From Candidatus Zixiibacteriota bacterium (GTDB lineage Bacteria; Zixibacteria; MSB-5A5; SM23-73-2): 49,910 nucleotides of DNA. Numbering within the stretch: the first letter of the stretch is position 1; every line of letters starts with the position of its first letter. The notes under the pieces are model-generated. The model saw only the letters and a program-made list of their open reading frames with translations. It had not been told where the DNA came from and ran no database searches. The stretch covers positions 1 through 49,910 of the forward strand of contig JAUWYR010000017.1 of assembly GCA_030615745.1 (NCBI GenBank), written 5' to 3'. Position numbers and translations under genes: made by a program. This document shows positions 5,568-22,896 of this stretch, piece by piece.

Positions 5568-7130
5568 TTATTTAATTAGAAGCATCTTCTTAGATTGGAC
5601 AAAATCTTTTGTTTTTAATTTATAAAAGTAAACTCCTGAGCTCAATTTATTACCATTTTCATCTTCTCCGTCCCACTTTATTGCTTTTAACCCTCTTTTC
5701 TGATGTTCGTTTATTAAAGTTTTAATCTTTTGACCTAAGAGATTATAGATGCTTAGATTTACCCAGGCGTTTTTAGGCAAGAAGTATTCGATTGTTGTAG
5801 CCGGATTAAAAGGATTGGGATAGTTAGGGAATAGTTGAAATTTTGTGGGATGGGAAGATGGGTCTTGTTCAGGGACATCTACTGATTGAGATATTATATA
5901 ATTCATTTTTCTGGCTAAGCTATCAGCTACTTCAACACTTATCAAGTTTACTTCTCCATTTATATCGAAAGCAAATAGTTCGACTGAATCAGCAGGAATA
6001 GTTTTACCTTGTAAACTCCAGAGCAAAACCTTTAACCTATCTTCAGTATCCGTAAATTTAATATCCATATCTGCCCTCAAGTTTAGATTATCTACTGTAC
6101 CAGTATAAGTAAATAGTAAATAAATTGCTCGAATGGATTGGGATGATTTCGAAAAAACTTTCACTTTCTCATTTTCAAAAAGAGTGTATACATAGGCGGT
6201 ATCATAAGTGAAGGGAGGAAAAGGAAATTCCCAAGGCAATGCATCTCCTGTAATTACTCTGATCAAAAAAGCTAAGTCTGAGATGGATAAGGTTATTCCA
6301 TCAGCATTCACATCAGTAGCGTTGATCTGGATTTCCCTCCAGTAGGGATCATCTGAGAATACACTCCAGCCATGGATGAAATAATCGGAAAAAAGCTCTG
6401 CATCTTCCATTTCATAGGGATAACCATTAACATTTACATCTCCCCGCCAGCTATCTCCACGTGGTATCAAGATTCCTCCATCAATGAAATAAACACCTCT
6501 AACTATATCCATTAATGGTACAATCGTATCCGAGTAGGGGAATTCTAAAGGATCAGCACTCACATATAGTATGTATCCGCTTGGATCAACTAAAATGTTC
6601 TCATCGTATAGGGTTGTATCCCACTCAAAGCTAACAGGTAGATAGCGCCCCCTGAGTGTGAAATCATATTTGATCTGAAATTCCAAAAAGACCAACGAGT
6701 CATAGGTGAAATTGGGCTTGATTGGATATCCCTGATAACCGTCAGGCATATCAGCAATACCAACTACCTTCACCTTTTTCTTATAAACATCATAACAAGG
6801 CATAAACTCGTAGTAGAACTTCTCAAACATATAGTGAGGGGTGTTCTCAGATACCCAGAAGTCGATGCTGTCGATGAGATCCCCTCTTGTAGCATCCAAA
6901 AGAGTCAAATAGTTTGGGTCCCACTTGATTATAAATTGAAAGCCTCCAATATTTACCTGATTTCTTAGGAAAAGAGCAAGATTGACTATATCTCCTGGAT
7001 CAGCTTCTTCCTCCTCGATTTTGACATTGATAACAATAGATTCCTCTGTCTCACTATTGCCGACATAGGACAAACTGAAGAAAGATAAAAGGAAAACGAA
7101 ACCGCTCAGAAGCAAAATACTTTTCCTCAT
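5568..7130 (-). CDS. secreted cohesin/dockerin-like protein with C-terminal sorting domain
   Basis: Exported surface or extracellular protein of unknown role. A signal peptide (about 1-26) is followed by a cohesin-like beta domain (about 33-205; ADPGDIVNLALFLRN, GGFQFIIKWDP). Dockerin-type calcium-binding loops come next (RGDVNVNGYPYEMEDAELF and ATDVNADGITLSISDLAFLI). A type IX-like sorting domain ends the protein, from FPNYPNPFNPATTIEY to SGVYFYKLKTKDFVQSKKMLLIK. The tail is nearly identical at DNA level to that of the gene at 43318-44262. It stands alone; 7131-7319 upstream holds no gene. Confidence 0.85.
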   Translation of the reverse strand: MRKSILLLSGFVFLLSFFSLSYVGNSETEESIVINVKIEEEEADPGDIVNLALFLRNQVNIGGFQFIIKWDPNYLTLLDATRGDLIDSIDFWVSENTPHYMFEKFYYEFMPCYDVYKKKVKVVGIADMPDGYQGYPIKPNFTYDSLVFLEFQIKYDFTLRGRYLPVSFEWDTTLYDENILVDPSGYILYVSADPLEFPYSDTIVPLMDIVRGVYFIDGGILIPRGDSWRGDVNVNGYPYEMEDAELFSDYFIHGWSVFSDDPYWREIQINATDVNADGITLSISDLAFLIRVITGDALPWEFPFPPFTYDTAYVYTLFENEKVKVFSKSSQSIRAIYLLFTYTGTVDNLNLRADMDIKFTDTEDRLKVLLWSLQGKTIPADSVELFAFDINGEVNLISVEVADSLARKMNYIISQSVDVPEQDPSSHPTKFQLFPNYPNPFNPATTIEYFLPKNAWVNLSIYNLLGQKIKTLINEHQKRGLKAIKWDGEDENGNKLSSGVYFYKLKTKDFVQSKKMLLIK

Positions 7131-7319: not shown

Positions 7320-7943
7320 CTATTTTATTATCTGTAACCATTCCCCCATAAGAAAATAAATCCTTCCGATCAAAAGGGACATCCTCGACATAACGGTATA
7401 TCCGAAGGATGCTCCAAAAGAGACCATTAAAAACCAGATTCCAACCTTTGCCCCGGAACCAACTAATCCCTTGTGCTCTTTGGAGAAAAAAAAGTAGACC
7501 AGACCAGTTACCACCCCTAATATTAAAATGAAATTATTCAAAGATTCAAACCAGTTCCCTGTCCACAGTGGTAAAAGATTCGCATGGATTTGAAGAATTA
7601 AATCACCTGTTCCATATCCTATTATGGCAATTCCAGCAAAAATCCCTATTATCAAAGCCATAGACCATCTCGAAAGCCAGAAAAAATTCTTTGTGAACCT
7701 GCTGAAAAGCAAAACTCCCAAGGTAAAAGGGATCAAAAGTATCAGATCCCCCCTCATAAGTGGGTCTCAAAGATTAGGACGAAAAACATTATGGTATTCT
7801 AAACAACACCAGTATCCAGCTGAAACACCGACATAGAGATGTTCAGCAAATTTATAAAAAGGATTATCCTTATATAAAAAACTGAAAACACATAAGGTCA
7901 ATCCAGCAGCAAGCCAAACTCCTATAAATTCAACTGAAAGCAT
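7320..7943 (-). pseudogene. cassette copy 1, gene D: polytopic membrane protein interrupted by in-frame TGA
   Basis: Reading from ATG 7943, the frame gives MLSVEFIGVW...SFLYKDNPFYKFAEHLYVGVSAGYW, then a TGA at 7769-7767, then continues in the same frame through DPLMRGDLILLIP to YFFFSKEHKG and FGYTVMSRMSLLIGRI. Full length would be about 207 residues against 212 and 225 in the paralogues at 10607 and 14193. The stop aligns with Trp in PKVWEPVTQKGEWW of copy 2, so TGG to TGA is the simplest reading. Translation could restart at ATG 7757 to give a 145-residue C-terminal part. About six membrane helices; function unknown. Confidence 0.85.
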
Positions 7944-7993
7944 AATAGATTAAAAATCACTATCCTCCAAAAATTGGAAGGCAGAAAAATTTT

Positions 7994-8839
7994 TCATCTC
8001 TTCTTTTTCTTTCTTGTTGAAAAATATGCTATATTCCCAATCAATATAAAAAGAAAAACAACTATATGAGAAACTGACTGTGAATCCATTCCCCTTCTTC
8101 CTAATCCAGTTTCACCCACCAATTTCTCATATTCAGCCGCACCCTTCATCCCACCTAAAAGACCAACAAGTTGTCCAGATTGTAGATACGGATAAAACTC
8201 AGGCGCAGAAACAGCAGTGCAACCTGATACTAATTTTATATGAAAACGGGAAACAACCTGCAGGATCCACTCCTTTGTTCCGGGAAGACCTCCTGAGATA
8301 TTTATGATGATGTCTAAATCTTTGTAATTTTTCACATCCTTCATAATTGGCAAATCCTCAACTCTGTTTCCGTGATAATCTGTTGGAAAAGTAATTGGAA
8401 TACTTTCCCCTAAAGAGACCATAACAATCTCACGTCCTTCCTTAAACCCTAAATTGACAAAGTCCACCCCATATTTTTTATTAAACTCAGAAACAGCCAC
8501 CTGATTAAAAGCAGCCTCAGCTAAGGGTGAGCCAGTTGCCCAGAGCTGGATGGAGATTACTTTGAGATTTTTTTGACAGAGCTGTCTTACAACAGCCAGA
8601 TTCATAGGCCATAGCTCAGGCATAGAACCCGGATCATAATCGCATGCTAACAAAACCTTTGAGCCTTCAGGCAAAGACTGAATCTCATCATAAAAGCTCT
8701 GAACAGGCGGAGTGACTGAGAAATCGATATTTAAGGGAAAAATCAAAGGTAAAGCAATTGCGCCCACAATAAAAATGAAGATAATCCTTCGGTCAAGTTT
8801 TTCTAGACTCTCAAGGATTTTAAGTATCTTCTTTTTCAT
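7994..8839 (-). CDS. cassette copy 1, gene C: membrane-anchored extracytoplasmic alpha/beta protein
   Basis: An N-terminal helix after LEKLDRR, about 200 residues outside the membrane, and a C-terminal helix ending in RKKKKR put the bulk of the protein in the periplasm. Motifs shared with the paralogues: DYDPGSMPEL, FPTDYHGN, and GQLVGLLGGMKGAAEYE. The pattern of strands suggests a Rossmann-like fold, but I recognise no enzyme. Start chosen at ATG 8839 to match paralogues. The frame is also open from ATG 8890 through the palindrome at 8858-8877, and a strong SD (GGAGGTGA) sits next to that upstream ATG. Confidence 0.85.
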   Translation of the reverse strand: MKKKILKILESLEKLDRRIIFIFIVGAIALPLIFPLNIDFSVTPPVQSFYDEIQSLPEGSKVLLACDYDPGSMPELWPMNLAVVRQLCQKNLKVISIQLWATGSPLAEAAFNQVAVSEFNKKYGVDFVNLGFKEGREIVMVSLGESIPITFPTDYHGNRVEDLPIMKDVKNYKDLDIIINISGGLPGTKEWILQVVSRFHIKLVSGCTAVSAPEFYPYLQSGQLVGLLGGMKGAAEYEKLVGETGLGRRGMDSQSVSHIVVFLFILIGNIAYFSTRKKKKR

Positions 8840-8857
8840 ATCAAAATACAGTTGTAG

Positions 8858-8877
8858 GTCGAGATTCCAATCTCGAC
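8858..8877. repeat. GTAGG-headed palindromic repeat between cassette genes B1 and C1
   Basis: Identical 20-base palindrome to 5534-5553, again preceded by GTAG. It lies between the Shine-Dalgarno in the end of gene B1 and the expected start of C1, and in the C1 frame it has no stop codon, so it could add 17 residues to the N-terminus. Confidence 0.85.
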
Positions 8878-8882
8878 AAAAA

Positions 8883-9503
8883 TCATTCACCTCCCATATA
8901 GGTTCTTTCCAATCCCACTAAAACCTTAAGTCCAGTTGAAATTGCTCCTAATGCTGCACCTATCATAATTGCACGCTTGGCTGCGAGCTGAGGAACATTC
9001 ATTATCCACTCGATAAAATCAGGGAAGGGTCTCCACAAGAACTCTCCCACAGGCACCCTTCCAATCATAACTAAAACAGCGGTAACACCTAACAAGGCCG
9101 CTTCCCAGGTTCTTATCCTGAACGCTCGAAAAGCTGCGGATGCGATATAAAATGCTAAAAGAGAAAACATAGTAGCCTGCATAGGATACATAGCATTCAT
9201 AAAAATCCAGTTGAAAGTTGTCCCCTCCTTTATTCCAAAGCCAATTCCTAAGATTATCATTAAAACCAGACCAGATAAAAGGAGAATTTTATATCCCCAA
9301 TCTCTCTCTTTTCTTTTTATCACCTGAGAGTTAACCCTGACAATATTTCCTACCCCCAGAACATAGGCAAATGCGATAACGATTATTGCCCATTGATTCA
9401 CCCTATGAGCTATCTGTGTCCAATGTGGCTCTGGAATGAAAAAGTCGGAGATGAAGAAAAAACCGGCTAAAAAACATATTACTATGGGAACTTCTCTACG
9501 CAT
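8883..9503 (-). CDS. cassette copy 1, gene B: polytopic membrane protein
   Basis: 206 residues with about six membrane helices. It starts MRREVPIVI, as all three B copies start with MRR and a short hydrophobic stretch, and ends LERTYMGGE. The central YPMQATMFSLLAFYIASAAFRAFR is almost invariant among the copies. No known transporter or enzyme motif is visible. The stop region carries GGAGGTGA, which would serve gene C1. Function unknown; constant company with A, C and D suggests one membrane complex. Confidence 0.88.
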   Translation of the reverse strand: MRREVPIVICFLAGFFFISDFFIPEPHWTQIAHRVNQWAIIVIAFAYVLGVGNIVRVNSQVIKRKERDWGYKILLLSGLVLMIILGIGFGIKEGTTFNWIFMNAMYPMQATMFSLLAFYIASAAFRAFRIRTWEAALLGVTAVLVMIGRVPVGEFLWRPFPDFIEWIMNVPQLAAKRAIMIGAALGAISTGLKVLVGLERTYMGGE

Positions 9504-9548
9504 TTAGACTCAACTCCGCACTAAAAGTTAGCTTCTATATAAAAAAAT

Positions 9549-9685
9549 GGTAGCCGTCCCGCTAAAAGCGGGACGAAATTATCTATGTTGGTTCGGGAAT
9601 TGGAATTCCCGAACCAAGCCTTAATGCGGGAAATCCCCGGAACGGGTCTTGCCTGCCCGGCCAGGGACGACAATTCCCGCATTAA
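9549..9685. repeat. cluster of three palindromic repeats between A1 and B1
   Basis: Three units fill the 211-base gap between genes A1 and B1: a GGTAGCCG-headed palindrome (9549-9575, with CGTCCCGC/GCGGGACG arms); a palindrome at 9590-9615 (GGTTCGGGAATT/AATTCCCGAACC); and an outer inverted repeat TTAATGCGGGAA (9621-9632)/TTCCCGCATTAA (9674-9685) enclosing the GCCTGCCCGGCCAGG core (9651-9665). The matching gap in copy 3 is only 22 bases, so the repeats are additions. Confidence 0.85.
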
Positions 9686-9714
9686 CCAAAATTTAACTTC
9701 TTTTTTAAAAATTA

Positions 9715-10515
9715 TTACCGCACAAAAAACCAAGATGAAAACTTAGTAATACCAAAAGTCTCAAGCAAAGCTCCTAAGATTAAGATAATTATTATCAAAA
9801 ACTTAGCTAAATCAGAGCCTTTTAAACTCCCCAAAAGCTTTGGCTCTTTTGAAAGATAAGCTGAGGTTGCAAAAAGCTCCTCACCAATAATAGTGTAATC
9901 GCAGGCAACCACAAAAAATGGGAGCTGATGAATATTAGCGGTTCCTGCAACCTGAATTGCACCGGTTGAAAAACCGGTCTCAGCCATAATTAAAGACTCT
10001 GCGAAAAATGAGCCGAACATAAGATTAGCTGCAGGACGCTCCCTTAACATAATTCCATTCACACCCGCAGTGTAGGCGAACTGCTCATCCGAGATATATC
10101 TTATATTATTTTTATCATAGGCATCCGGTTTTCCAGCCTTTATATATCCTTGTTTAACAGCCTCCTCTGCAACTGGAACAACAAATGGTCTGCAGATCGG
10201 AACTAAGAGTGGGACATCGTATCTCGCAACCATCTCAGTAACATTACCTAAGATGATCATAGATGCAACGGTCTGCAGATTATCCATATCCTCTATCCCT
10301 GAGATATATAAAATTGGTTTGCCCATCTCAGTTGCCCTTCCAACCGCCTCCTCAATAGCATCTAAACCAGAAATCCTGCGAACAAAAAGTGATTTACCTT
10401 TTTTAGCCTGATTTATAAAATAGAAGACAAAGGCAAAGAAAAGCCCAAGTATAACCAAGACGTTGATTCGATTAAAATCAAACCAAGAGGAGAGATAGAA
10501 AAAGATAGGGGACAT
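9715..10515 (-). CDS. cassette copy 1, gene A: DUF6754-like membrane protein without Fn3 domain
   Basis: 266 residues: one N-terminal helix (about 17-37), a cytosolic domain after NQAKKGKSLFVRR, and a C-terminal helix. Conserved landmarks: VGRATEMGKPILY, DMDNLQT, ERPAANLMFGSFFAESLI, AETGFSTGAIQVAGT, DYTIIGEELFA, LGSLKGSD. From memory this domain is DUF6754. The copies at 12945 and 16425 have about 135 further residues at the N-terminus (signal peptide plus Fn3) that are absent here; only 91 bases separate its start from the upstream gene. Function unknown. Confidence 0.88.
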   Translation of the reverse strand: MSPIFFYLSSWFDFNRINVLVILGLFFAFVFYFINQAKKGKSLFVRRISGLDAIEEAVGRATEMGKPILYISGIEDMDNLQTVASMIILGNVTEMVARYDVPLLVPICRPFVVPVAEEAVKQGYIKAGKPDAYDKNNIRYISDEQFAYTAGVNGIMLRERPAANLMFGSFFAESLIMAETGFSTGAIQVAGTANIHQLPFFVVACDYTIIGEELFATSAYLSKEPKLLGSLKGSDLAKFLIIIILILGALLETFGITKFSSWFFVR

Positions 10516-10606
10516 TAATTTAGCTAAACCTTATCCCACTTTGGATTTTTTTTAAAACCACCCCTTATTAAAAGAGATACCTGAACAATTCTACAAAGTA
10601 ATCTCC

Positions 10607-11245
10607 TCAAAAGCCCCACAGGGCTTTAGTCACCATGAGATACCAATTGTGAATCTCCGTGATTCTATCTGCCAGAAGGGAGATTCTTCCCATCACGGTT
10701 AATCCAAACCCCGCGCCGAATCCGATCATGAGAATCCAGATTCCCAGTCTGGCCGCTCCTCCCACCACCCCTTTATGCCCCATGGAGAAGAAGAAATAGA
10801 TCAAGCCACAAAGAACTCCCAGCATAATCAAAAGGTTCCAGACCCCTTGAATGTTGGTGAAGTGTACGGGTAGCATGGTGGCGTGCAGTTGTTTTATAAC
10901 CCGTTGTTGCATCTCCAGCGGTATGGCCACTCCCACCGCAATCCCCATGTAAAAGGCGATGGCGAAGCGGGAGATCCAGGACCACTTTTTGGAAAAGCGG
11001 GCCCAGGTCATCATTCCCAGAATCGTAGGCAAAAGATACCACCACTCGCCTTTTTGAGTGACTGGCTCCCAAACCTTGGGAATGAAGCCGTTGAAGTAAA
11101 GGATGATAGCAAAATAACCCGCTGAAACCCCTACTACCAGATGCTCGGCAAATTTGTAAAAAGGGTTGTCTTTATAAAGGAAGGAAAATATGCATAAAGT
11201 CAAGAAAAGAGCAACCGTATTCCAGATTATAGTCCCCAGGTCCAT
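10607..11245 (-). CDS. cassette copy 2, gene D: polytopic membrane protein
   Basis: 212 residues, about six membrane helices. Signature segments shared with the other D copies: SFLYKDNPFYKFAEHLVVGVSAGY near the start, YFFFSMGHKG, then GGAARLGIWILMIGFGAGFGLTVMGRISLL near the end. The codons for the last residues form an inverted repeat (AAAGCCC/GGGCTTT, about 10609-10626). The gene looks G+C-richer than copies 1 and 3 (36 G/C in the 60 bases at 10921-10980, hand count). No catalytic motif is recognised. Confidence 0.9.
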   Translation of the reverse strand: MDLGTIIWNTVALFLTLCIFSFLYKDNPFYKFAEHLVVGVSAGYFAIILYFNGFIPKVWEPVTQKGEWWYLLPTILGMMTWARFSKKWSWISRFAIAFYMGIAVGVAIPLEMQQRVIKQLHATMLPVHFTNIQGVWNLLIMLGVLCGLIYFFFSMGHKGVVGGAARLGIWILMIGFGAGFGLTVMGRISLLADRITEIHNWYLMVTKALWGF

Positions 11246-11257
11246 TCTCCATCCTCC

Positions 11258-12082
11258 TTACTTAATTTTCTTTTTTCTGGACATAAAGTAGCCAATGTTG
11301 CCTGCCACAATGAACAGGATAATCACGATGTGAGCGGTGGTCTGGATGCTCATCATCTTTATGGCTCGATCACCCTGTTTAGACAAAACCTCATACTCAG
11401 AAGCTCCCTTAAGTCCTCCCATCAAACCGAATATCTGTCCAGACGCCAGATAGGGATAGTAATTGGCGGTCATCACTCCGGTGACGCCCACGGCTAATTT
11501 AACATTGTAACGTCCGTTACCGTAGATAATCCAGTAGTCAGTGATGTTACCGGACGAGATATCGATCACCACCTTCACATCATCATAATTTTGAACACCT
11601 CGCATCATGGGTAGGGAATCCAAAGGCACTCCGTAGTAGTCTGTGGGAAATGGAATCCTAAAGTTCTGACCCATGCCCAGAATGACTATTGAAAAATAGG
11701 GCTTGTAACCCAGATAGCAGTAATCTATTCCGCTTTTCTTGCCAAATTCTTTGCTGAGTTCGCTTATCAATTGCTCCGCCATTCCCGGTCCGTTCTGGGA
11801 AAGCGCGGAGATGATAAGTTTGACATCTTTGGCAAAACACTGACGCATGATGGCTTTTGCCATGGGATGCACCTCGGCCATGGCTTGGGGATCATAATCT
11901 ATCGCCAGAAACAGAATATCCCCCGGCTCTAAGCTCTCGACACAATCGTAGATAGCTTTCACCTCCTGGGTGACATATACGGGAACCCGGAAGGGATTCA
12001 AGACCGGGATGATCACCGCTATTCCCACCACCAGGTAAACCCATCTCCGATCCAGATTCATCAATCTCTCATAGAAATTCAT
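11258..12082 (-). CDS. cassette copy 2, gene C: membrane-anchored extracytoplasmic alpha/beta protein
   Basis: 274 residues with helices near 14-30 and 246-265, a positively charged end (RKKKIK) and a large extracytoplasmic middle. It keeps FPTDYYG and GQIFGLMGGLKGASEYE but has DYDPQAMAEVHPM where copies 1 and 3 have DYDPGSMPEL. The SD GGAGGT lies 7 bases before the ATG, showing the ancestral arrangement disturbed in copy 1. Function unknown. Confidence 0.9.
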   Translation of the reverse strand: MNFYERLMNLDRRWVYLVVGIAVIIPVLNPFRVPVYVTQEVKAIYDCVESLEPGDILFLAIDYDPQAMAEVHPMAKAIMRQCFAKDVKLIISALSQNGPGMAEQLISELSKEFGKKSGIDYCYLGYKPYFSIVILGMGQNFRIPFPTDYYGVPLDSLPMMRGVQNYDDVKVVIDISSGNITDYWIIYGNGRYNVKLAVGVTGVMTANYYPYLASGQIFGLMGGLKGASEYEVLSKQGDRAIKMMSIQTTAHIVIILFIVAGNIGYFMSRKKKIK

Positions 12083-12099
12083 AATCGTACCTCCAAAAG

Positions 12100-12717
12100 T
12101 TAATCATGACCCATATATGCTCTTTCGATCCCCAGGATGATCTTCAGGCAGGTAGCGACAATTCCCAATCCTATTCCGATTAAAATAGCCCGATTAGCCG
12201 CCATACTGGGAACCATTAAAATCCAGGTAGCTAACTTCTGATTTGAGCCAGAGATAGGTCCCAAGGGGATCAAACGGAGCATTATCACCATTGCGGTCAA
12301 AAGCAGAATAGTAGCCAGAACGGTTCTTGCCCGGAAAGCCCGGTAGGCGGCAGAGGCAATATAGAAAGCCAGAAGAGAAAACATGGTGGCTTGAATGGGG
12401 GTATAGATATACCAGAAGACCTGCATGAAAGGGGTTCCCTCTTCAATTCCCCATAGAGGGCCACCGATTAGCATAAAGAAAAGCCCACCCAAAGCTACCA
12501 CGCTATATCCCCAGCCTGGTGATCTTTTAACCACCTTATCCAGTTGAACCTTAAACAGGCTCCAGATGCCCAGAAGCATAGCAAAGATGCCGATGACGAT
12601 GATCCAATCCAGTCCATATTCGTAGAAGAACACTCCGGCATCGTGGGGGATGAAATACTGAATAGCCATGAACGCCCCTGAGACAAAAACGATAATAATG
12701 GGGAGCTGTCGGCGCAT
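12100..12717 (-). CDS. cassette copy 2, gene B: polytopic membrane protein
   Basis: 205 residues, about six membrane helices, starting MRRQLPIII and ending LGIERAYMGHD. The core YTPIQATMFSLLAFYIASAAYRAFRAR is nearly the same as in the B copies at 8883 and 15755. The 227-base gap upstream to gene A2 carries many imperfect copies of GCTCG/CGAGC (12739-12890) and no gene. Function unknown. Confidence 0.9.
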   Translation of the reverse strand: MRRQLPIIIVFVSGAFMAIQYFIPHDAGVFFYEYGLDWIIVIGIFAMLLGIWSLFKVQLDKVVKRSPGWGYSVVALGGLFFMLIGGPLWGIEEGTPFMQVFWYIYTPIQATMFSLLAFYIASAAYRAFRARTVLATILLLTAMVIMLRLIPLGPISGSNQKLATWILMVPSMAANRAILIGIGLGIVATCLKIILGIERAYMGHD

Positions 12718-12944
12718 GCTTTTCTCCTTTAATAAGGCTCGATGCTCGGATATGGTTGTCGAGGCTCGTAATGAAGCTCGTTATTTCGAAACTCGACACT
12801 TAAAAATTTCTTTATCCAATTAGGTAGTACAGCTTCTAACTTCGAGCCTCCAGCCTCGATACCAGCTTCGTCAACGTTAACCGAGCGTCGAAAACCAATT
12901 TTCATGAAATCCTCTTTGACACTTTATAGTATGTCTTATAAAGA

Positions 12945-14165
12945 TTATAGTTTCACCGCAAACAACTTTATGAAGAAATCCAGATGAAATGAAGCCGCCA
13001 ATCCTCCTAAGATCAGGCTGATCATTACCAGAGCCTTTCCCCAATCCTGGGCCTTAAGCGAGCCTAAGAGCAAAGGTTCCTTTCCCAGGTAGGCTGAGGC
13101 GGCGTAAAGTTCTTCTCCGATCAAGGTATAGTCTGTGGCAGCTACAAAGAAGGGGATCTGGGCAATCTCATCTGTGCCGGAGATCTGGATCGAGCCTGCC
13201 ACCGATCCGGTCTCTGCTAAAATCAAAGATTCCGCATAGAATTTCCCCAAATAGAAGTTGGTAGCAGGTCTTTCTCTGACCATAATTCCATTAACCGCTG
13301 CCACATAGGCAAACTGCATGGAGGTAACGTAGAATATGTTGTCCTCTTTATACATCTCCGGTCTTCCTGCATCCAGATAGGCCGCCTTCACCGTCTCCTG
13401 CGCCACGATCATCACTATGGGATCATTACAGGGCACCAGTATGGGGGTGCGGTATTCTGCTGTCATCTTCGATATTCGAGCTAATATCGTAAAGGAGGCG
13501 ATGGTGGCTACGTCGGCGGCAGTTCCCAAGCCCAGAATGTAAAGAATCGGCTTTCCCATTTCTGTGGCTCTCCCGATTGCTTCATCCACTGCCTCAATCC
13601 CGGCTAAAGGACGAATATAGAGCTCCTCTCCTTTTTTTGCCTTTCTGATAAACATTATAGTGAATACTGTAAAAATCACACAAGCAACCAAGATTACAGT
13701 CCTGCCTGTGTGAAACAGCTGACCATAGGCATAAGCGGGTGGGGAAACATCAGATAAAGATGACCCTTTCTCCGCATTTGCCCTCACCCGATAGTAAAAA
13801 TTCTTATGACTGGGGAAATAATCCTCAGACTTCTTCTCCTTAACCCCTCCATCCTCGTAAGTATTGACCCCCGCGGCTACCATTCTTCTAACCACAAATC
13901 CAGAATCGGGGTTATCTGATCTTAATATCTCGTATGAAATTACATTACTTTTTCCAGCTCCATCATCAGGTGAGAGCTCCCAGGTAATGGTTATGGAATG
14001 ACCGTTATCATTAGGAGTATCGAAGGCTTTCATATTCAAAGGAGGAGCAGGAGCTTGAACTGAAGTATTTGAGAAATCAGAGGCAGGGGAGTTAGCGAAA
14101 AATACAAAAAAAAATGATAAAAAGAATGAAAATAAAAAATAATGAAAACTTTTATTCATATTCAT
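12945..14165 (-). CDS. cassette copy 2, gene A: signal peptide, Fn3 domain and DUF6754-like domain
   Basis: 406 residues. Signal peptide (about 1-28), one fibronectin type III domain outside (about 45-145; KAFDTPNDNGHSITITWELS, ISYEILRS), a membrane helix (about 153-172), a cytosolic DUF6754-like domain beginning RKAKKGEELYIRPLAG, and a last hydrophobic segment. Landmarks VGRATEMGKPILY (here AIGRATEMGKPILY), ERPATNFYLGKFYAESLILAETG and DYTLIGEELYAASAYL are intact. It thus spans the membrane with sensing-like and cytosolic parts, though no signalling function is known. Confidence 0.9.
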   Translation of the reverse strand: MNMNKSFHYFLFSFFLSFFFVFFANSPASDFSNTSVQAPAPPLNMKAFDTPNDNGHSITITWELSPDDGAGKSNVISYEILRSDNPDSGFVVRRMVAAGVNTYEDGGVKEKKSEDYFPSHKNFYYRVRANAEKGSSLSDVSPPAYAYGQLFHTGRTVILVACVIFTVFTIMFIRKAKKGEELYIRPLAGIEAVDEAIGRATEMGKPILYILGLGTAADVATIASFTILARISKMTAEYRTPILVPCNDPIVMIVAQETVKAAYLDAGRPEMYKEDNIFYVTSMQFAYVAAVNGIMVRERPATNFYLGKFYAESLILAETGSVAGSIQISGTDEIAQIPFFVAATDYTLIGEELYAASAYLGKEPLLLGSLKAQDWGKALVMISLILGGLAASFHLDFFIKLFAVKL

Positions 14166-14192
14166 CTTTTCTCTTCCTCAAATCTCAAATCT

Positions 14193-14870
14193 CTATCCAA
14201 GCATCCCAAGCCAGGTTCCAAAGATATAATCCATCCTTCCGATCAAAAGGGACATACGGGACATAACAGTATAGCCAAATGATGCTCCAAAAGTTATCAT
14301 CAAAAACCAGATCCCCAATCGAGCAAGTCCTCCAAAAGTACCCTTGTGCTCTTTTGAGAAGAAGAAATAGGTAAGTCCACAGAATGTTCCTACTATGATG
14401 ATAAGGTTGCCTATAGTTGTATAAAAATCGCCATGAACATATAAAGGAAGTATAGTTCTTTGAATTTGACGCAAACCATTGCTAACCAGATAAGTTATGA
14501 AATAATAGCCTGAGGTTGTCCCAACCACGAAAGCCAGAGACCAACGCGATATCCAGCCGATCTTGGGGAAAAGTCTTAAAAGCATCAAAAATCCTAAAAT
14601 CCCACCAAAAATGTAACTCCAGTGCATATAGTCAGCCATTCCTGCAGAAAACCCCTGAGTTATGAAGGTGTTCAGACCTATTTCCACGTTGCGGATCATC
14701 TTGGCAACAAAAACGGTCCAGAACAAAGTCACAAACCAGTGTCCGGCTGAGACCCCGATAAATAAAGCCTCACAGAATTTATAATAAGGATTATCCCCAT
14801 AAAGAAAAGAGAAAATCCCGAGGGTCAAAAGTCCTCCGATCCAAATTCCTATATCTGGAGTAAGATGCAT
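14193..14870 (-). CDS. cassette copy 3, gene D: polytopic membrane protein
   Basis: 225 residues, the longest D copy, with an extra stretch around residues 60-80 (NTFITQGFSAGMADYMHWS). SFLYGDNPYYKFCEALFIGVSAGH, YFFFSKEHKG and GLARLGIWFLMITFGASFGYTVMSRMSLLIGRM are the shared motifs; the last is almost identical to the D1 pseudogene. It begins 14 bases after gene C3. About six membrane helices; function unknown. Confidence 0.9.
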   Translation of the reverse strand: MHLTPDIGIWIGGLLTLGIFSFLYGDNPYYKFCEALFIGVSAGHWFVTLFWTVFVAKMIRNVEIGLNTFITQGFSAGMADYMHWSYIFGGILGFLMLLRLFPKIGWISRWSLAFVVGTTSGYYFITYLVSNGLRQIQRTILPLYVHGDFYTTIGNLIIIVGTFCGLTYFFFSKEHKGTFGGLARLGIWFLMITFGASFGYTVMSRMSLLIGRMDYIFGTWLGMLG

Positions 14871-14884
14871 CTTTTTACCTCCGA

Positions 14885-15730
14885 CTAAGACTCTTTTCTC
14901 TTTTTCCGAGTAGCAAAGTATGCGATATTGCCAACTATAACAAAAAATATCACCACCGCATGGGATACCCCTTGACCGAACATATAGCGCACAGCTCTTG
15001 CCGGTCTTTTAGCCAAAATCTCATATTCAGCAGCACCTTTCATTCCGCCTAAGAGCCCGACAAGTTGACCAGTATTGATATAAGGATACATCAGAGGAGC
15101 CTGAACCGCTGTATTTCCTGCGCCGAGCTTGGCATGAAATCGATCCACCGCGAATTGAACCCACTCAGTGGTCCCGGGATAACCAGCAGAAAGGTTATAG
15201 ACAAAGTCAATATTGCTGAAGTTCTGAACCCCTTTCATTAAAGGTATTTCATCAATTGGAGTTCCGTAATAGTCTGCGGGAAAGGCGGCATGAATATCAG
15301 AGCCCAACCTCTGAATTACAACTTCACCTCCAGCAATGTAGCCTAAATTAACATAATCTATCCCATACTTTAGATTCTTCTCTTTGATATCCGGCTCATT
15401 TAAGATAATCTCCAATGCCCAGTTTGCCTGTAAAGGACCTTGAGGCCACAAGCCCATTATTACAAGTTTTAAATCTTTGGAAAAACAATGCCTTAAGACT
15501 GACTCAGCCATGGGCTGGAGCTCCGGCATAGAACCTGGGTCATAGTCAAAAGAGATCAAAACCTTAGAACCTGAAGGCAGTGCCTCAACTGTATCATACA
15601 CACCCCTGACCACTGGCGTGATATCAATATGCATGGTCACCTCAAAAAACAAAGGAAGCGCAATGGCTATGGCGATAAAGATAAAGATCACCCTCCGGTC
15701 GATCTTTAAAAGCTTCTCAAAAAATCCCAT
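14885..15730 (-). CDS. cassette copy 3, gene C: membrane-anchored extracytoplasmic alpha/beta protein
   Basis: 281 residues: MGFFEKLLKIDRR then a helix, about 210 extracytoplasmic residues, a C-terminal helix and RKKRKES. Motifs: FDYDPGSMPELQPM, FPADYYGTPIDEIPLMKGVQNF, LSAGYPGTTEW, GQLVGLLGGMKGAAEYE. The close match of these to copy 1 across a diverged background marks them as likely functional. No catalytic triad or metal site of a known family is evident. Confidence 0.9.
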   Translation of the reverse strand: MGFFEKLLKIDRRVIFIFIAIAIALPLFFEVTMHIDITPVVRGVYDTVEALPSGSKVLISFDYDPGSMPELQPMAESVLRHCFSKDLKLVIMGLWPQGPLQANWALEIILNEPDIKEKNLKYGIDYVNLGYIAGGEVVIQRLGSDIHAAFPADYYGTPIDEIPLMKGVQNFSNIDFVYNLSAGYPGTTEWVQFAVDRFHAKLGAGNTAVQAPLMYPYINTGQLVGLLGGMKGAAEYEILAKRPARAVRYMFGQGVSHAVVIFFVIVGNIAYFATRKKRKES

Positions 15731-15754
15731 TTTTTAATCTCTTTACTAAAAAGG

Positions 15755-16402
15755 TTATTCTCCGCCAAGAAAAGCTCTCTCAATTCCTAAAATGACTCTG
15801 AGAGAAGTTGATACAATTCCCAAAGCAATTCCTATCATAACCGCCCTCTGTCCAGCGGTCTGGGGGAAATCCATTATCCAGTCAGCAATGTTACCCATTC
15901 TCCAACCTTCTGGTAACCAGGTGGTCAAATAATAACCGATAGGAACTCTTCCCAACATCACAAAGAAAGCAGCCAAAAGCAATATAGTAGCTTCTAAGTT
16001 CCTCGCACGAAAGGCACGATAGGAAGCAGAGGCAATAAAAAAAGCTAAGATAGCGAACATAGCTGCCATCAAGGGATAATAGATCCGGTCATAAAGCCAA
16101 TAATATCTGGTTCCGAACTCGCCGAAATCTCTTCCCTCACGAATACCAATATAGACAAAAAGAAAAAATCCTAAAATAGTTACGATGCTAAAACCCCAGC
16201 CCGGTCTTTTCTTGTAAACTTTATCCACATTGATTTTCAATAAATTTAAAATCCCTAAATATATAGCAAACGCAGCAATCACCATGAACCAATCGGAGAA
16301 AAGATCTCTTACATCTGAAAAAGGAGCATGAGGAACAAAATAGGCGATGATAAGGGTAAAACCCACTATGGCTGTGATGGTTAAAGGGACCTCTCTTCGC
16401 AT
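15755..16402 (-). CDS. cassette copy 3, gene B: polytopic membrane protein
   Basis: 215 residues, about six helices, starting MRREVPLTI and ending LGIERAFLGGE. Central IYYPLMAAMFAILAFFIASASYRAFRARN corresponds to the invariant core of B1 and B2. It follows A3 by 22 bases and precedes C3 by 24 bases, the most compact layout of the three cassettes and probably closest to the ancestral one. Confidence 0.9.
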   Translation of the reverse strand: MRREVPLTITAIVGFTLIIAYFVPHAPFSDVRDLFSDWFMVIAAFAIYLGILNLLKINVDKVYKKRPGWGFSIVTILGFFLFVYIGIREGRDFGEFGTRYYWLYDRIYYPLMAAMFAILAFFIASASYRAFRARNLEATILLLAAFFVMLGRVPIGYYLTTWLPEGWRMGNIADWIMDFPQTAGQRAVMIGIALGIVSTSLRVILGIERAFLGGE

Positions 16403-16424
16403 TTACTTTACCTCATGAAGTTCT

Positions 16425-17636
16425 TTATCCTGCTGAAAACAAAGGACTTATATCATAAACTCCCAAACTCAAAAGAATAGCACCAATAACTATTGCTGCT
16501 AAAAATATAAATTTACCCACATCCTGACCTTTTAAGCTTCCTAAGAGCTTAGGGTCTTTTGAAAGATAAGCTGAGGCAGCGAAAAGCTCCTCGCCGATTA
16601 AAGTATAATCGCAGGCAGCAATAAAAAATGGTATCTGTGCAGGAGCTGCAGTTCCTGCGATCTGAATAGCCCCAACTGAATTTCCGGTCTCAGCTAAGAT
16701 TAAAGATTCTGCATAAAATTGACCCTGAAGGAATATCGCAGCAGGTTTCTCCCTGACAAAAAGACCATCCACAGCAGCGGCGTAACCGAACTGGTCATCG
16801 GTGAGGTAGTAAACCAGATCCTCGTTAAAAGCATCCGGTCTTCCTGCATCAGTATAAGCTCCCTTCATCACTTCTCTGCAGGTAACCATCACCATTGACC
16901 GAGAAACTGGAACCTCCAGTCTGGCTTCGTATTCAGCGGCAACTTTGGCTACTCTTCCTAAAATAGTTACCCCTGCTATGGTTTGCATATTGTCCATATC
17001 TGAGATTCCCGGGATATAAAATATTTTTCTTCCCATCTCCGTTGCTCTTCCCACTGCATCATCCACTGCTTCCAGTCCGGCGATCTTTCTTATGTAAAGC
17101 TTTTTTCCGGCTTTGGCTCGGTTAATAAAATATAAGATGGCAAAGGATAAAACTACTACGAAGACAAAAATATTTAATCTGCTTAAATTGAACCACTGTG
17201 CCTTGGACATAGCTGGCAGGCTGGGAAAGGATAGAGAATAGTTTATTCCGTCAGTTACATTGATTTTATAAAAATACTCTTTTCCATCCGTAACATTATT
17301 GTCAGTGAATTTTTGAGCGCCTGAGGCAGAAGACCCTATAAGCTCATACTCCCCATCAGCTTCAGTGGCTCTTAAGATCTCATATCCTTTGACATCATTT
17401 GCCCCGGTTCCGTCATCTTTTGATTTTTCCCAAGTTATGGTAATGCTTCTGCCCCTATCATTTGGAGTGTCAAAAGCACCCACATTGGTTGGTGAAGCCG
17501 GTGGGATAGTATCTTTTGGAACTATAAGCTCCTCTTGTGCTATTGCGATTGAAAAAAGCAAGATGAAGTTGAAAAGTAAAATCAAAACTATTAAGCTGAG
17601 CTTTTCCTTTAAGCTTTTACTTTTTGAGCTTTTCAT
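16425..17636 (-). CDS. cassette copy 3, gene A: signal peptide, Fn3 domain and DUF6754-like domain
   Basis: 403 residues. Signal peptide (about 12-33), Fn3 domain (about 45-140; FDTPNDRGRSITITWEKS, VKGYEILRA), a membrane helix (about 155-170), then NRAKAGKKLYIRKIAGLEAVDDAVGRATEMG and the rest of the DUF6754-like domain to DYTLIGEELFAASAYLSKDPKLLGSLKGQD and a final helix. It is the first gene of the twelve-gene run and probably the start of the main transcript. Confidence 0.9.
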   Translation of the reverse strand: MKSSKSKSLKEKLSLIVLILLFNFILLFSIAIAQEELIVPKDTIPPASPTNVGAFDTPNDRGRSITITWEKSKDDGTGANDVKGYEILRATEADGEYELIGSSASGAQKFTDNNVTDGKEYFYKINVTDGINYSLSFPSLPAMSKAQWFNLSRLNIFVFVVVLSFAILYFINRAKAGKKLYIRKIAGLEAVDDAVGRATEMGRKIFYIPGISDMDNMQTIAGVTILGRVAKVAAEYEARLEVPVSRSMVMVTCREVMKGAYTDAGRPDAFNEDLVYYLTDDQFGYAAAVDGLFVREKPAAIFLQGQFYAESLILAETGNSVGAIQIAGTAAPAQIPFFIAACDYTLIGEELFAASAYLSKDPKLLGSLKGQDVGKFIFLAAIVIGAILLSLGVYDISPLFSAG

Positions 17637-18012: not shown

Positions 18013-19143
18013 CTATTCTTCTAATAGCTCCACATTAGCTCTCGGAATTATTGCCCTTATTTTATCCCCAAACTCCACCTGTAATACACGGGCGGAAGAT
18101 TCAGATTCCAATTTCTGAAGATTGGGAGGGAGATCAACAACTTTTCCTAATTTTCCAAAATAAGGCTCTCTTATCACCCTTATCTGCCTTCCTATCTCCA
18201 GCCCAACCTTTTCGTCGAATTCCTCCTCTTTCATCTTAGTATGCACATCTCTCTCACATGGAATAACCACCTCTGGACGGATAACACCAGCTCTTATTTG
18301 GGTTGCTCCATTTATACAAGCTTCCTCTCCCTCTTTTGACTTCAGAAGCTCGAAAGTCCTCTCAGCCATATTCATTTGCCCGAATCCCTCTGTAACCACC
18401 AAGGTTATCCCAAGCTCCTCTGAGCCGGTGATAGCCACTCCCAGATCATAACCTAAAAATTCCCTTAAATCCTTATCATCGAATCCACCAATAACTATAC
18501 CTTTAGCTCCAACTGAGACTGCCTTTTTAATAGCAGAAGCTGTAACAAGACTTCCTCCCACTAAAACATAACCCTCGTAATCTTTGTTAATATGCTTATC
18601 GGACAAAACCTCGGTATTGTCTTTGCACACCATCTTGAGTTTTCCGTGTGTTTCCCCACCAATTCCAAAAATTCCCTGAATAAAAGAGCCCCAACTGCTT
18701 ACCGCAACCCCTTCTTCTTGGTAAACCTCCACCACTTCACCTTTTAAATAAGCTTTTATCTCCACTGGTTGAGGATTGCCACGAATTAAAACCTGACCAG
18801 TAATTGAGGAGATACTTTCTATTGTTCCTTCGGTTTTAGTTTTGCACTCGGAGGTGAAAAGGCCAAAAAAGCTTTTGCTTTTAGCAATTACCTCGTTCTC
18901 TTCTACCTTTTCCCCCTCCTTTTTAAGCATATGATGAATCACATCCTCAGGAGGAACTCCTAAGATATTAGCCACATTTATAGGCTCAACCGCACCCGGC
19001 AGAAGGGTTCGAGCCACCACAGTGTCAGGCTCAACCTTATTACCCACCTTAACCAGAACCTCCCCCTTCAAAGGCAAAATTCTTTTTTTGGTTAACAAGA
19101 TTTTTTCTGTAACTTTTAAACCTGGCGTATAAGCATGACCCAT
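18013..19143 (-). CDS. KOW/barrel-sandwich-like soluble protein of unknown function
   Basis: 376 residues, no signal peptide. The N-terminal part (about 15-100; LPLKGEVLVKVGNKVEPDTVVA, HHMLKKEGEKVEENEVIAKS) resembles the barrel-sandwich hybrid seen in lipoyl and RnfC-like domains. The middle (about 195-270; GGSLVTASAIKKAVSVGAKGIVIGG) looks like an alpha/beta domain. The C-terminus (about 325-375; GRQIRVIREPYFGKLGKVVDLP) is KOW/translation-factor-like. It follows the MutL-like ATPase by 99 bases and precedes the cassette run on the same strand. I do not know its function. Confidence 0.8.
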   Translation of the reverse strand: MGHAYTPGLKVTEKILLTKKRILPLKGEVLVKVGNKVEPDTVVARTLLPGAVEPINVANILGVPPEDVIHHMLKKEGEKVEENEVIAKSKSFFGLFTSECKTKTEGTIESISSITGQVLIRGNPQPVEIKAYLKGEVVEVYQEEGVAVSSWGSFIQGIFGIGGETHGKLKMVCKDNTEVLSDKHINKDYEGYVLVGGSLVTASAIKKAVSVGAKGIVIGGFDDKDLREFLGYDLGVAITGSEELGITLVVTEGFGQMNMAERTFELLKSKEGEEACINGATQIRAGVIRPEVVIPCERDVHTKMKEEEFDEKVGLEIGRQIRVIREPYFGKLGKVVDLPPNLQKLESESSARVLQVEFGDKIRAIIPRANVELLEE

Positions 19144-19242: not shown

Positions 19243-21087
19243 TCACAATCTTTCCAAAGCCTCCTCAGGATAGATATCCAATGCGACCATCCATTCTTTT
19301 AACTTCTTCATTCTAATCTTATGGTCTTCTGGAAGATTAAAGGGTCTCCCTCTGGCATCGATTATTATACCAGTTACACCTCCGTGGATTTCCAAATCTA
19401 CTTTATTCCCTTTGCCTTCACCCGCGTCGAATCCTCTCAGAGGATTCAAAATAGCCTTACAGGTTAAAGGCATACCTGTTTTCTGGTCCAGTCCTAAGGG
19501 AATTCTTAACATCTCTCCATAGTTTATGGTTCCTTCGATTTTCTCTCCATCGGGCATCTCAAATTCATATTTTAAAATCTCCTTTGGCTCTTTTAACTTA
19601 CCTACCAGAGCAATGCAAGTTCCCAGATGGATCAAACAGTCCTTTTCAAACACCTGAGTGGCAGCCTTTGGATGAACATCTGTCAAAACACCTAACTGAG
19701 GCATCATAAAGATAGAATCAACTGCTAATCTTGTTATCCCCTCAGGTAAAAATCCATCGATTAGCATCAAGGCTGCTTGTTGCCTTCGTGGAGCATGGGA
19801 TAAGACACCTCCTGAGCCAATAAGCATATTTAATGACATCATATTAACTAAAGTCTGACCACCCATAGTCTGCTCAAATGCATCCGCAATAGTCCTCTGC
19901 TGTTGAATTCCTTTTAGAACTGTGGCAAATGATTTGTGCTGGACAAAAGCTAATCTCAAGGCCTCCTTGGCAATCGCTTGTTCAAAAATCAGCTCCTCCA
20001 TTGTCTGAGGGATAGTGGTTGGTCTTATCATTTTGTTCTTGACTCTGTTTCTCAAATCCCTTTCATCCATATCAAAAGGAAACCACCTGGTCACATTCTC
20101 CAACCCAGCCTCAGCAAAAACATTGGAGACTGAATAGCTCATCCCCAAATTGGCGCTTACAGTTCTGTTGAATATCCCCTGAAAGACTGAGAAGATATCA
20201 GTGGTTGCACCACCGATATCAACTCCCACAGCTTCTATCTGATTCATATCAGCAATGGTTTTTATTATCAAACCTACTGCTCCTGGTGTAGGCATTATGG
20301 GCGCATCTGTCCAGCTCATAAGTTTTCTGTATCCAGGTGCCTGAGCCATAACGTGCTCCATAAAAAGGTCGTGGATTTTTTCCCTGGCAGGCATAAGGTT
20401 CTCCCTCTCCAAAACCGGTCTTAAGTTATCAACGATATCCAGATCCACCTTTCCATCCAGAGTTTTTCTAATAGCCTCTTGCGCATCTTTGTTCCCAGCA
20501 TAGATAACTGGAAGTTTGTATCCTGTTCCCAGCCTCGGCTTAGGATCTGCTGCGGATATAAGCTCTGCCAGTTCCACCACGTGGGTTGTTGTTCCTCCGT
20601 CTATTCCTCCGGAAAGAAGGATCATATCAGGTCTCAGGTATCTTATCCTTTCGATCTGTTGATGGGGAAGCCTTTTATCATTTGAGGCTATGACATCCAT
20701 AACAATAGCGCCTGCGCCCAAAGCTGCACGCTCAGCAGATTCTGCGGTCATGCTTCTAACTACCCCCGCCACCATCATCTGAAGTCCTCCCCCTGCTGAA
20801 GAGGTGGAAACATATAAATCTGTTCCCACATTGCTATTTGAAGGGGATATGATCTTTCCTTTCTCATCCAATAGCTTTCTTCCGGAAAGCTCCTCCACTT
20901 CAGCCACAGCATTCAATACTCCCATAGTAACATCCTCAAAAGGAGACTCCACCGTAGTAGGTGCCTCACCCCTCACAATCAACCTGTAGTCTTCTCCTTT
21001 TTTCTCAATCAAAATCGCTTTGGTGGTGGTGCTGCCACAATCGGTAGCTAAGATAATTTTAATATTTTCAGGTTTTAAATCTTTCAT
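19243..21087 (-). CDS. MutL-like (glutamate mutase L family) ASKHA ATPase
   Basis: 614 residues. The phosphate-binding signature LATDCGSTTTKAIL is at about 13-26 and a second ASKHA motif VGVDIGGATTDIFS in the middle (about 291-305), as in the GlmL/MutL family of actin-like ATPases. GlmL accompanies B12-dependent glutamate mutase, but no mutase subunit lies in the window; here it sits with the KOW-like protein and cassette run, suggesting another role such as assembling or remodelling that complex. Start ATG 21087 is preceded by GAGGAG about 9 bases upstream. Confidence 0.88.
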   Translation of the reverse strand: MKDLKPENIKIILATDCGSTTTKAILIEKKGEDYRLIVRGEAPTTVESPFEDVTMGVLNAVAEVEELSGRKLLDEKGKIISPSNSNVGTDLYVSTSSAGGGLQMMVAGVVRSMTAESAERAALGAGAIVMDVIASNDKRLPHQQIERIRYLRPDMILLSGGIDGGTTTHVVELAELISAADPKPRLGTGYKLPVIYAGNKDAQEAIRKTLDGKVDLDIVDNLRPVLERENLMPAREKIHDLFMEHVMAQAPGYRKLMSWTDAPIMPTPGAVGLIIKTIADMNQIEAVGVDIGGATTDIFSVFQGIFNRTVSANLGMSYSVSNVFAEAGLENVTRWFPFDMDERDLRNRVKNKMIRPTTIPQTMEELIFEQAIAKEALRLAFVQHKSFATVLKGIQQQRTIADAFEQTMGGQTLVNMMSLNMLIGSGGVLSHAPRRQQAALMLIDGFLPEGITRLAVDSIFMMPQLGVLTDVHPKAATQVFEKDCLIHLGTCIALVGKLKEPKEILKYEFEMPDGEKIEGTINYGEMLRIPLGLDQKTGMPLTCKAILNPLRGFDAGEGKGNKVDLEIHGGVTGIIIDARGRPFNLPEDHKIRMKKLKEWMVALDIYPEEALERL

Positions 21088-21366: not shown

Positions 21367-22002
21367 CTATTCCTTCAAGGCTTCTACTAATGCTTCCCCA
21401 AACTTTTTCGCCACCGGAGGTCCTGAAGCAGTAATGATATTACCATCCCTTACCACATCCTCTTCAGTATAAAAAGCACCTTTATCTTTTAACTTATCTT
21501 CTTCAGATTTCCAGCAGGTTGCTTTTTTACCCTCTAATATTTTTGCATTAGCCAAAGTCACGGGCGCAATACAGATTGCTCCTACTATTTTACCCTGATT
21601 CAAAAATTCTTTTGCCAGATTATGAACAAAAACATCATCCCAGTACTGGGAAGCGCCTATACCTCCGACAAAAACAATAGCATCCCACTCCTCTGGTTTA
21701 ATATCTGTAACCAAAAGATCAGGCTGAACCTCATGACCACCCATCCCCTTAACCATTTCTTTTGTGGTGCTGGCTACTGATACAATAGCACCTGCATCTG
21801 CTAAGACCTCCTCCGGGTCCAAAAGCTCCTCATCCCGATAATTTTTTTCAGCAATGACCATAACCACTTTCTTTCCTTCAATTACCCTTTGTTCCATCTT
21901 CTCAGGCTCAATTTCAGCCTCCTCCTTTTTCCCACAGCCTGAAAACAAAAGCCCCAAGACCAATAAAGGAACTAAGTTAAGTAAAATCCTTTTCATCTTC
22001 AC
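21367..22002 (-). CDS. DJ-1/PfpI family lipoprotein
   Basis: 211 residues. Signal peptide with lipobox-like LLFSGC (C23), so probably a membrane-anchored lipoprotein, unusual for a DJ-1/PfpI protein. The domain runs from about residue 45 (KKVVMVIAEKNYRDEEL, with E52) to the end, with the nucleophile-elbow cysteine C144 in GAICIAPVTLANA. Relatives are glyoxalases, chaperones or proteases; which applies cannot be told. An AGGAGGTG ribosome binding site precedes the ATG. It is preceded by about 70 bases without genes. Confidence 0.88.
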   Translation of the reverse strand: MKMKRILLNLVPLLVLGLLFSGCGKKEEAEIEPEKMEQRVIEGKKVVMVIAEKNYRDEELLDPEEVLADAGAIVSVASTTKEMVKGMGGHEVQPDLLVTDIKPEEWDAIVFVGGIGASQYWDDVFVHNLAKEFLNQGKIVGAICIAPVTLANAKILEGKKATCWKSEEDKLKDKGAFYTEEDVVRDGNIITASGPPVAKKFGEALVEALKE

Positions 22003-22072: not shown

Positions 22073-22480
22073 TTACTCTTTCCCCAAAATAATCTGCCAG
22101 ATATTTCTTTTTCCTTTCCTTTTTCTCTCCTCTTTTGCTTTTTTCTTCATCTCTTTCTCTTTAGCCTCCTGTTCTGCTTCGAATTTTTCTATTTTCTGTA
22201 ATAAAATCTCAACTGTTCCCCTCTCCTCCATAAGCTTTCTTAACTCATCGTAATCCTTCCAGGAAAAAATCGCCTGAAAGAAAGGCTCAAAAAAGACCAT
22301 CATCTGTGAACCAATATAATTTAAAGGCTTCATCGTCTCCAAGAACAATATTGCAGGAACAGACATCTTCCAATATATCACCTTTTTTGCAATCTTGTCC
22401 AAAATCTCATGTTGGTGCTGGGTAAGCTCTTTTTCCTTTGGATCTTTCGGTTGAAAGGAGAACATCTCCCTGAAGGTCAT
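22073..22480 (-). CDS. hypothetical protein with charged C-terminal coiled coil
   Basis: 135 residues. A short hydrophobic stretch (VIYWKMSVPAILFLETM, about 34-50, then PLNYIGSQMMVFFEPFF) suggests membrane association, and residues 85-125 are a very charged helix rich in Lys and Glu. I do not recognise the family. Its start overlaps the stop of the next gene upstream by 4 bases (ATGA), so the two are coupled. Confidence 0.75.
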   Translation of the reverse strand: MTFREMFSFQPKDPKEKELTQHQHEILDKIAKKVIYWKMSVPAILFLETMKPLNYIGSQMMVFFEPFFQAIFSWKDYDELRKLMEERGTVEILLQKIEKFEAEQEAKEKEMKKKAKEERKRKGKRNIWQIILGKE

Positions 22481-22896
22481 GATTTTTTTCCCTCTTTTAG
22501 TTTAGATTTTACGAAATCGATAACCTCATCTTTATTCTTTTCAAATCTCAAATATATACCCCTGAAATTCTCCAACCTCGACGGTCTCTCAAATGGGGAG
22601 AGTAAAACCCCATTTTTATCCACATAAAAACTACGATAATAGTTCCAATCTTTGGCCTTATTGGTGAAAAAAAATCTAACTTTGATTTTGTCCTTGCTCA
22701 GCTCATATTCTGTAGGGAAAAAAAATGATGATAAAGAACCAAAGAGAATTATAACAGAGATCACCAAAAAAAGGATGCTTTGGGTTGATAGATAAACTAA
22801 AATCCAGCACAAAATCAGAAAACAGATAACCAAAACCGATATTTTTGTGTTTTTTTTAAAAGGATAGGACCTCCATCTAAGAATTTCTTCTGACAT
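22477..22896 (-). CDS. hypothetical membrane protein, possibly bacterial PH-like
   Basis: 139 residues with a cytosolic start, two close hydrophobic helices (about 19-60) and a small beta-rich end (YELSKDKIKVRFFFTNKAKDW, NGVLLSPFERPSRLENFRGIYLRF). That two-helix plus beta pattern resembles bacterial PH-domain membrane proteins, as an inference only. It lies 2 bases after the gene at 22899 and is coupled to the gene at 22073. Confidence 0.75.
   Translation of the reverse strand: MSEEILRWRSYPFKKNTKISVLVICFLILCWILVYLSTQSILFLVISVIILFGSLSSFFFPTEYELSKDKIKVRFFFTNKAKDWNYYRSFYVDKNGVLLSPFERPSRLENFRGIYLRFEKNKDEVIDFVKSKLKEGKKS

Follow-up and report, generated by a model that had tools for sequence, protein, structure and literature searches.

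What is encoded by twelve consecutive genes that repeat the same series of four, and is the series of four the whole of the system? The question is raised by a 49,910-nucleotide stretch of DNA (the window), contig C27 (JAUWYR010000017.1) in the 2.28 Mb genome of a Candidatus Zixiibacteriota bacterium (GCA_030615745.1). Its minus strand carries, in 7320-17636, genes in the order A1 B1 C1 D1, A2 B2 C2 D2, A3 B3 C3 D3, and all twelve open reading frames (ORFs) are confirmed. An earlier note on this DNA had described them as three A-B-C-D units on one strand, a tandem triplication of a four-gene membrane cassette matching no system that could be named. We find that A to D do belong together, and that the conserved unit reaches beyond A1, upstream to 22896, through the genes Y-X-M-K (Table 1). 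Our tentative reading, held with a little less than even confidence, is that A-B-C-D forms the membrane module of a machine in the inner membrane that has not been described before, and that Y-X-M-K in part make up its cytosolic side.

The distribution of the genes carries much of the argument. Among 311 relatives searched, a sample that was not random, A was present in 154, comprising all 98 genomes in the class of the window and 56 of the 213 from outside it, the latter spanning 47 families. Outside the window's class C was found in 39 of 40 A-positive genomes and in none of 40 that are A-negative, and K in 36 of 40 as against none of 40. The rarity of co-occurrence elsewhere that the earlier note had named as counting against a single complex was thus not seen. 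Omp85 was uninformative as a marker for the system, being present in 39/40 genomes that have it and in 36/40 that do not. In the 36 genomes behind the named loci (loci, genomes and contigs carry our L, G and C numbers) K and M are each present in 35, mostly as one copy; K is single, and C, like A-D as a whole, is present in one to seven copies.

Gene order is also conserved. The order ABCD is kept in Zixibacteria, Stahlbacteria/WOR-3, Latescibacterota, Planctomycetota, Poribacteria, Fermentibacterota, Marinimicrobia and others. Operons in distant families read X-M-K-A-B-C-D (L151), X-A-B-C-D-M-K (L159), X-A-B-C-D-M (L164) and Y-X-M-K-A-B-C-D-A-B-C-D (L169), and in L160 and L161 there is Y-X-A-B-C-D with K elsewhere. 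The operons of L151, L159, L164 and L169, which come from unrelated families, are compact, with genes overlapping or closely spaced. Clustering of neighbouring genes at loci from the named genomes gave four families beside ABCD in up to nine groups, Y being a conserved neighbour in 7 groups and X in 8. The cassette described earlier therefore stands as regards the order and co-occurrence of A to D, but not as a set of four on its own, the larger set including K, M, X and Y.

With regard to M, it matches PF13941, the MutL/GlmL superfamily, over its full length (432.5 bits, cut-off 27), and of the ATP-site motifs DCGSTTTK is nearly invariant and DIGGATTD and SGG are invariant in the alignment. 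M is thus like GlmL and the ornithine protein Or-4 over the full length and in the nucleotide-site motifs, but differs in being about 160 residues longer, in falling below the NCBIfam equivalog cut-offs (for GlmL, NF040745, 235.9 bits against 475, and also those for Or-4 and TIGR01319), and in having K and a membrane complex as its partners. An alignment of K (22 rows) has a mean column identity of 61%, and its members match RnfC_N in 9 of 22 cases (best 1.2e-6) and NQRA_N in 4 of 22, and biotin-lipoyl and KOW profiles too. The likeness to RnfC and NqrA is limited to the N-terminal barrel-sandwich hybrid; K differs in its C-terminal KOW domain and, by reading, has no iron-sulphur cysteine motif, only isolated cysteines. 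An Rnf/Nqr electron-transfer complex is not supported, given this lack of iron-sulphur cysteines and there being no other Rnf/Nqr subunit recognised among A-D. In Marinimicrobia M and K are fused in a protein of about 1006 aa.

X has invariant residues E48, P52, Q59, P66 and E85, and adjoins M or A in L147, L151, L159, L160, L164, L167 and L169. In the Y family two members match bPH_6 (best E 5.7e-4), and the order Y-X recurs in L160 and L169. A distant paralog in which M and K are fused, some 950-1000 aa long, occurs in several genomes as well, for example L147 9844-12825 (-) and L149 1322-4171 (+); in two that were read fully there is no ABCD alongside, and Cloacimonadota and Aegiribacteria genomes with such a paralog have ordinary M and K as well. 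In the window X and M are separated by a DJ-1/PfpI gene at 21367-22002 (-), which is excluded from the system as it is not among the conserved neighbour families.

The A proteins are clear members of DUF6754 (PF20539), a family without a described function, with scores far above the cut-off of 27 (Table 1). The family profile places an N-terminal extracytoplasmic fn3-like domain in A1 and A2, which is missing from A3. B and D have about six predicted transmembrane (TM) helices each, and C has one on either side of a large extracytoplasmic domain. An AlphaFold2 model of A3 consists of a TM helix, an alpha/beta domain and a second TM helix (predicted local distance difference test, pLDDT, 90.2; predicted template modelling score, pTM, 0.84), and that of C2, modelled alone, has the same layout (scores in Table 1). 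The two modelled domains share their helix-strand order, and both are confidently modelled as Rossmann-like domains held between two TM helices. We place the domain of A in the cytosol because a KKGK-type positive stretch directly follows TM1, and that of C outside because positive residues flank both ends, so that the two are predicted to lie on opposite faces of the membrane. In all of this the topology predictions and models agree with the earlier note, which had a DUF6754-like A on the cytosolic face, a C with a large domain between two helices on the periplasmic face, and polytopic B and D.

Profiles of A and C were not significantly related in local or global hhalign comparison, and for this reason common descent of the two is not claimed; comparison of B with D also gave no relation. 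Foldseek found no close fold in the PDB for A or C, only generic Rossmann-type matches at low TM-scores (best E 8e-4 for A and 1.5e-3 for C), the highest, about 0.5, being to small proteins, for instance a molybdenum-cofactor carrier protein and domain III of transhydrogenase. There was no PDB sequence match outside the fn3 region of A. In Pfam no match to C or D held across the family members, and B had weak, scattered matches, none reliable (best 2e-6, to TMD0_ABC). The PADLOC anti-phage defence models gave 0 matches with 10 proteins. The A-D subunits match no family of described transporters or secretion systems in Pfam, the PDB or Foldseek, and the statement that no known system could be named, with the check for such systems that the earlier note had proposed, is upheld by these searches. 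A literature search for DUF6754, PF20539, PF13941 or the gene combination found nothing relevant, most subscription papers being outside the search.

Polar residues are conserved within the predicted membrane helices, namely Q247, H251 and N262 in TM2 of C, E34 in TM2 of D and R186 in TM6 of B; H251, N262 and E34 are among those that are invariant. In L056 C and D are fused in a protein of 571 aa; a joint MAFFT alignment of this fusion with separate C and D proteins set the D rows on C. Some members of the families are extended. The A proteins at L168 7194-9923 (+) and L170 6627-9434 (-) are about 910-935 aa in length, and their extracytoplasmic N-terminal regions are very long, that of L170 starting with a lipoprotein-like signal. 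At L157 6079-8199 (-), in the divergent member G227 (no Omp85 match), C has at its N-terminus a long extension in which PDWLR-like motifs repeat, and is directly followed by D and M.

The third line of evidence is the manner in which the units are inherited. Within each of the four types the copies align over their whole length with about 41-51% identity to copy one, and by sequence their likeness far exceeds chance; they are homologous yet diverged, as had been claimed. In a tree of whole units (a quick search with SH-aLRT support only, the L009 third unit being left out) unit 1 of the window groups with units that come first in other arrays, and unit 2 with units that come last, both in well-supported clades, and unit 3 forms a long branch to which none of the included units is close. 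Units from other phyla branch between the unit-1 and unit-2 clades, and these two classes must thus predate the close relatives. Pairing of units between loci by A agrees with pairing by C in 141 of 153 locus pairs, by B in 134 of 153 and by D in 128 of 153, where 40.5 would be expected by chance, and in arrays of equal size the best match of a unit is positional in 65 of 73 pairs. As the four genes give congruent pairings the units are inherited as sets, which fits an obligate complex, and the paralogous versions presumably differ in specificity.

The genome holds five A genes, three in the window, one on contig C69 and one on C55. That on C69 (L007) is part of a fourth, complete A-B-C-D unit; C55 (L006) has an A-B pair, and a C-D pair without A-B on C12 (L201) is presumably the remainder of the fifth set begun on C55. 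The tandem triplication of the earlier note is correct for the three units, but they are not the whole set, there being five sets in the genome, and units 1 and 2 belong to older paralog classes.

We suggest that the parts work together as follows. From the C-D fusion, the co-occurrence and the unit-wise inheritance we infer that A-D form one physical complex, in which B and D would be the membrane core, A would present its Rossmann-like domain on the cytosolic face, with N-terminal fn3-like domains, where present, outside, and C would have its own Rossmann-like domain on the outside of the membrane that holds A. We also infer coupling of M and K to A, with ATP as the drive. A single ATPase unit, M with K and probably X, would serve every membrane module of the cell; binding or hydrolysis of ATP by M would be relayed through K to A and would thereby bring both the B/D core and C into another state, so that something in the envelope is transported or remodelled. 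In ECF transporters and similar systems one shared ATPase serves several membrane modules, and the arrangement is alike in having one single-copy ATPase unit and several such modules. However the likeness is one of design only, M being of the ASKHA and not the ABC type of ATPase, with no relation found at the sequence level. That we have here a new class of machine in the envelope, one whose several interchangeable membrane modules, with Rossmann-like domains on opposite faces, are powered by a single ASKHA ATPase through a barrel-sandwich/KOW adaptor, is possible but in our view rather doubtful. Among known systems we found none of the same make-up; it is for the mechanism that support is weak.

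Several observations weigh against the machine that we propose. To our knowledge no ASKHA ATPase drives a membrane machine, and while ATP is probably the energy source, the ATP drive is for this reason a guess. In some genomes, G300 and G305 for example, K and M are found apart from ABCD, and at E 1e-50 K is missing from 4 of the 40 that are A-positive. G285 has four C genes and one A, so that the subunits need not be 1:1, and with A-B on C55 and C-D on C12 it is clear that a unit can be split. Linkage without contact would equally give unit-wise congruence. The separation of K and M from ABCD in G300 and G305, and the lack of K or M alongside the extra units on C55, C12 and C69, could also mean that A-D is a self-contained transporter or enzyme that shares an operon by chance with the separate housekeeping genes M, K, X and Y. 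We regard this as improbable, since K and M are in nearly all A-bearing genomes, with K in none of the 40 that lack A, and since the same genes reunite in differing orders in different families. It is less probable still that the extra units are dosage copies with the same function; the architecture is indeed identical in all copies, but units 1 and 2 each group with orthologs at the same position in other species, in clades that are distinct and well supported, and the positional matching between arrays also speaks for distinct versions.

Two other explanations deserve more weight, and we consider both unlikely. M, with K, might be a GlmL-like chaperone or reactivase that assembles or reactivates a membrane-bound A-D enzyme, with the Rossmann-like domains binding a cofactor or substrate. 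The named members of PF13941 are mutase accessory proteins, and the weak structural matches of A and C include nucleotide- and cofactor-binding folds, but M is below the GlmL and Or-4 cut-offs and no enzyme family is recognised among A-D. In the case of glutamate mutase itself, MutE (PF06368) is not found in the window's genome (G000) and is above cut-off in 2 of 48 A-bearing genomes, and M is thus unlikely to be a glutamate mutase reactivase here. A shade less probable is an envelope scaffold or membrane organiser that links cytosolic factors to periplasmic structures for integrity or cell shape and moves no substrate. The outer fn3-like domains of A, the long extracytoplasmic regions of some A proteins and the PH-like nature of Y would suit this role, as would envelope-type neighbours of some units, named by sequence reading (NfeD-like, SPFH and CBS at L029, LiaF-like at L066, MreB at C12 and in G001). 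However such neighbours are not conserved across phyla, and conserved polar residues in membrane helices, together with the conservation of an ATPase, point beyond a scaffolding role. The membrane machine with Y-X-M-K as its partners remains the reading that we favour.

Unit 3 has one irregularity. The twelfth gene of the earlier note is present, but the ORF first listed for it, 7320-7757, is the 3' part of a D3 frame that opens at 7943 and is broken by a single in-frame TGA at 7769-7767, a stop also marked by the search tool. The surviving part has 80% identity to D3 of the related locus L009, where the third D has an open reading frame across the stop region, and no stop is present in the D copies found in G001, a genome from the same genus. 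Taken whole, unit 3 has 75-80% identity to the third unit of L009, whereas units 1 and 2 have 67-71% to their counterparts (A and C); being the closer of these it is not a decaying unit, and the TGA is either a true nonsense change or an assembly error.

Table 1. Genes of the conserved neighbourhood in the window, listed from its upstream end (gene, position, strand, description)
Y	22477..22896	-	139 aa; predicted TM segment(s), weak bacterial PH-like domain; upstream end of conserved neighbourhood
X	22073..22480	-	135 aa; soluble; no known family in family search; 4-base overlap with Y
M	19243..21087	-	ASKHA ATPase, MutL/GlmL superfamily (PF13941); usually single-copy
K	18013..19143	-	barrel-sandwich hybrid (RnfC_N/NqrA_N-like), alpha/beta and KOW; single-copy; often just upstream of A
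A1	16425..17636	-	signal/N-terminal fn3-like domain, TM, predicted cytosolic DUF6754 domain, TM; PF20539 412 bits
B1	15755..16402	-	about six predicted TM helices, polytopic
C1	14885..15730	-	TM, predicted extracytoplasmic Rossmann-like domain, TM
D1	14193..14870	-	about six predicted TM helices, polytopic
A2	12945..14165	-	built as A1; PF20539 376 bits
B2	12100..12717	-	B-type copy, by alignment
C2	11258..12082	-	structure modelled; pLDDT 95.4, pTM 0.90
D2	10607..11245	-	D-type copy, by alignment
A3	9715..10515	-	short, without fn3-like domain; structure modelled; PF20539 387.6 bits
B3	8883..9503	-	76% identity to L009 counterpart
C3	7994..8890	-	75% identity to L009 counterpart
D3	7320..7943	-	D-type, with in-frame TGA

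With regard to the surroundings, directly downstream of D3 at 5568-7130 (-) is a gene for a secreted protein with a cohesin-like domain and a type IX secretion C-terminal signal, which probably has nothing to do with the cassette. Rfam and tRNA scans of the window gave no matches, and promoter and terminator scans gave counts not above those of shuffled sequence. In other genomes, L029 13956-15826 (+) has NfeD-like, SPFH-like and CBS-domain genes between two ABCD units, and L066 a LiaF-like membrane protein beside the unit, all named by reading the sequence. A gene that reads as MreB is near the C-D pair of C12 (L201 6161-10481 (-)), and likewise in the same-genus G001 (L203 4072-7703 (-)). 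At L156 4263-9926 (-) a single D is surrounded by four C genes and has just one B and one A alongside, and C can thus multiply independently.

The system, a set of seven or eight genes carried by many bacteria that have been little studied, is conserved, multi-copy and operonic, and is present in every sampled genome of the class and in 47 other sampled families, amounting to roughly one in four of the bacterial genomes sampled outside the class (56/213). It very likely serves a basic task in the cell envelope of these bacteria, and does so with proteins of which B, C and D have no fitting Pfam entry and A is a DUF for which no literature was found. The relatives in Planctomycetota and Caldithrix suggest that study in culturable organisms is possible. 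If M does drive the machine, an ASKHA ATPase would be added to the known ways of energising membrane machines.

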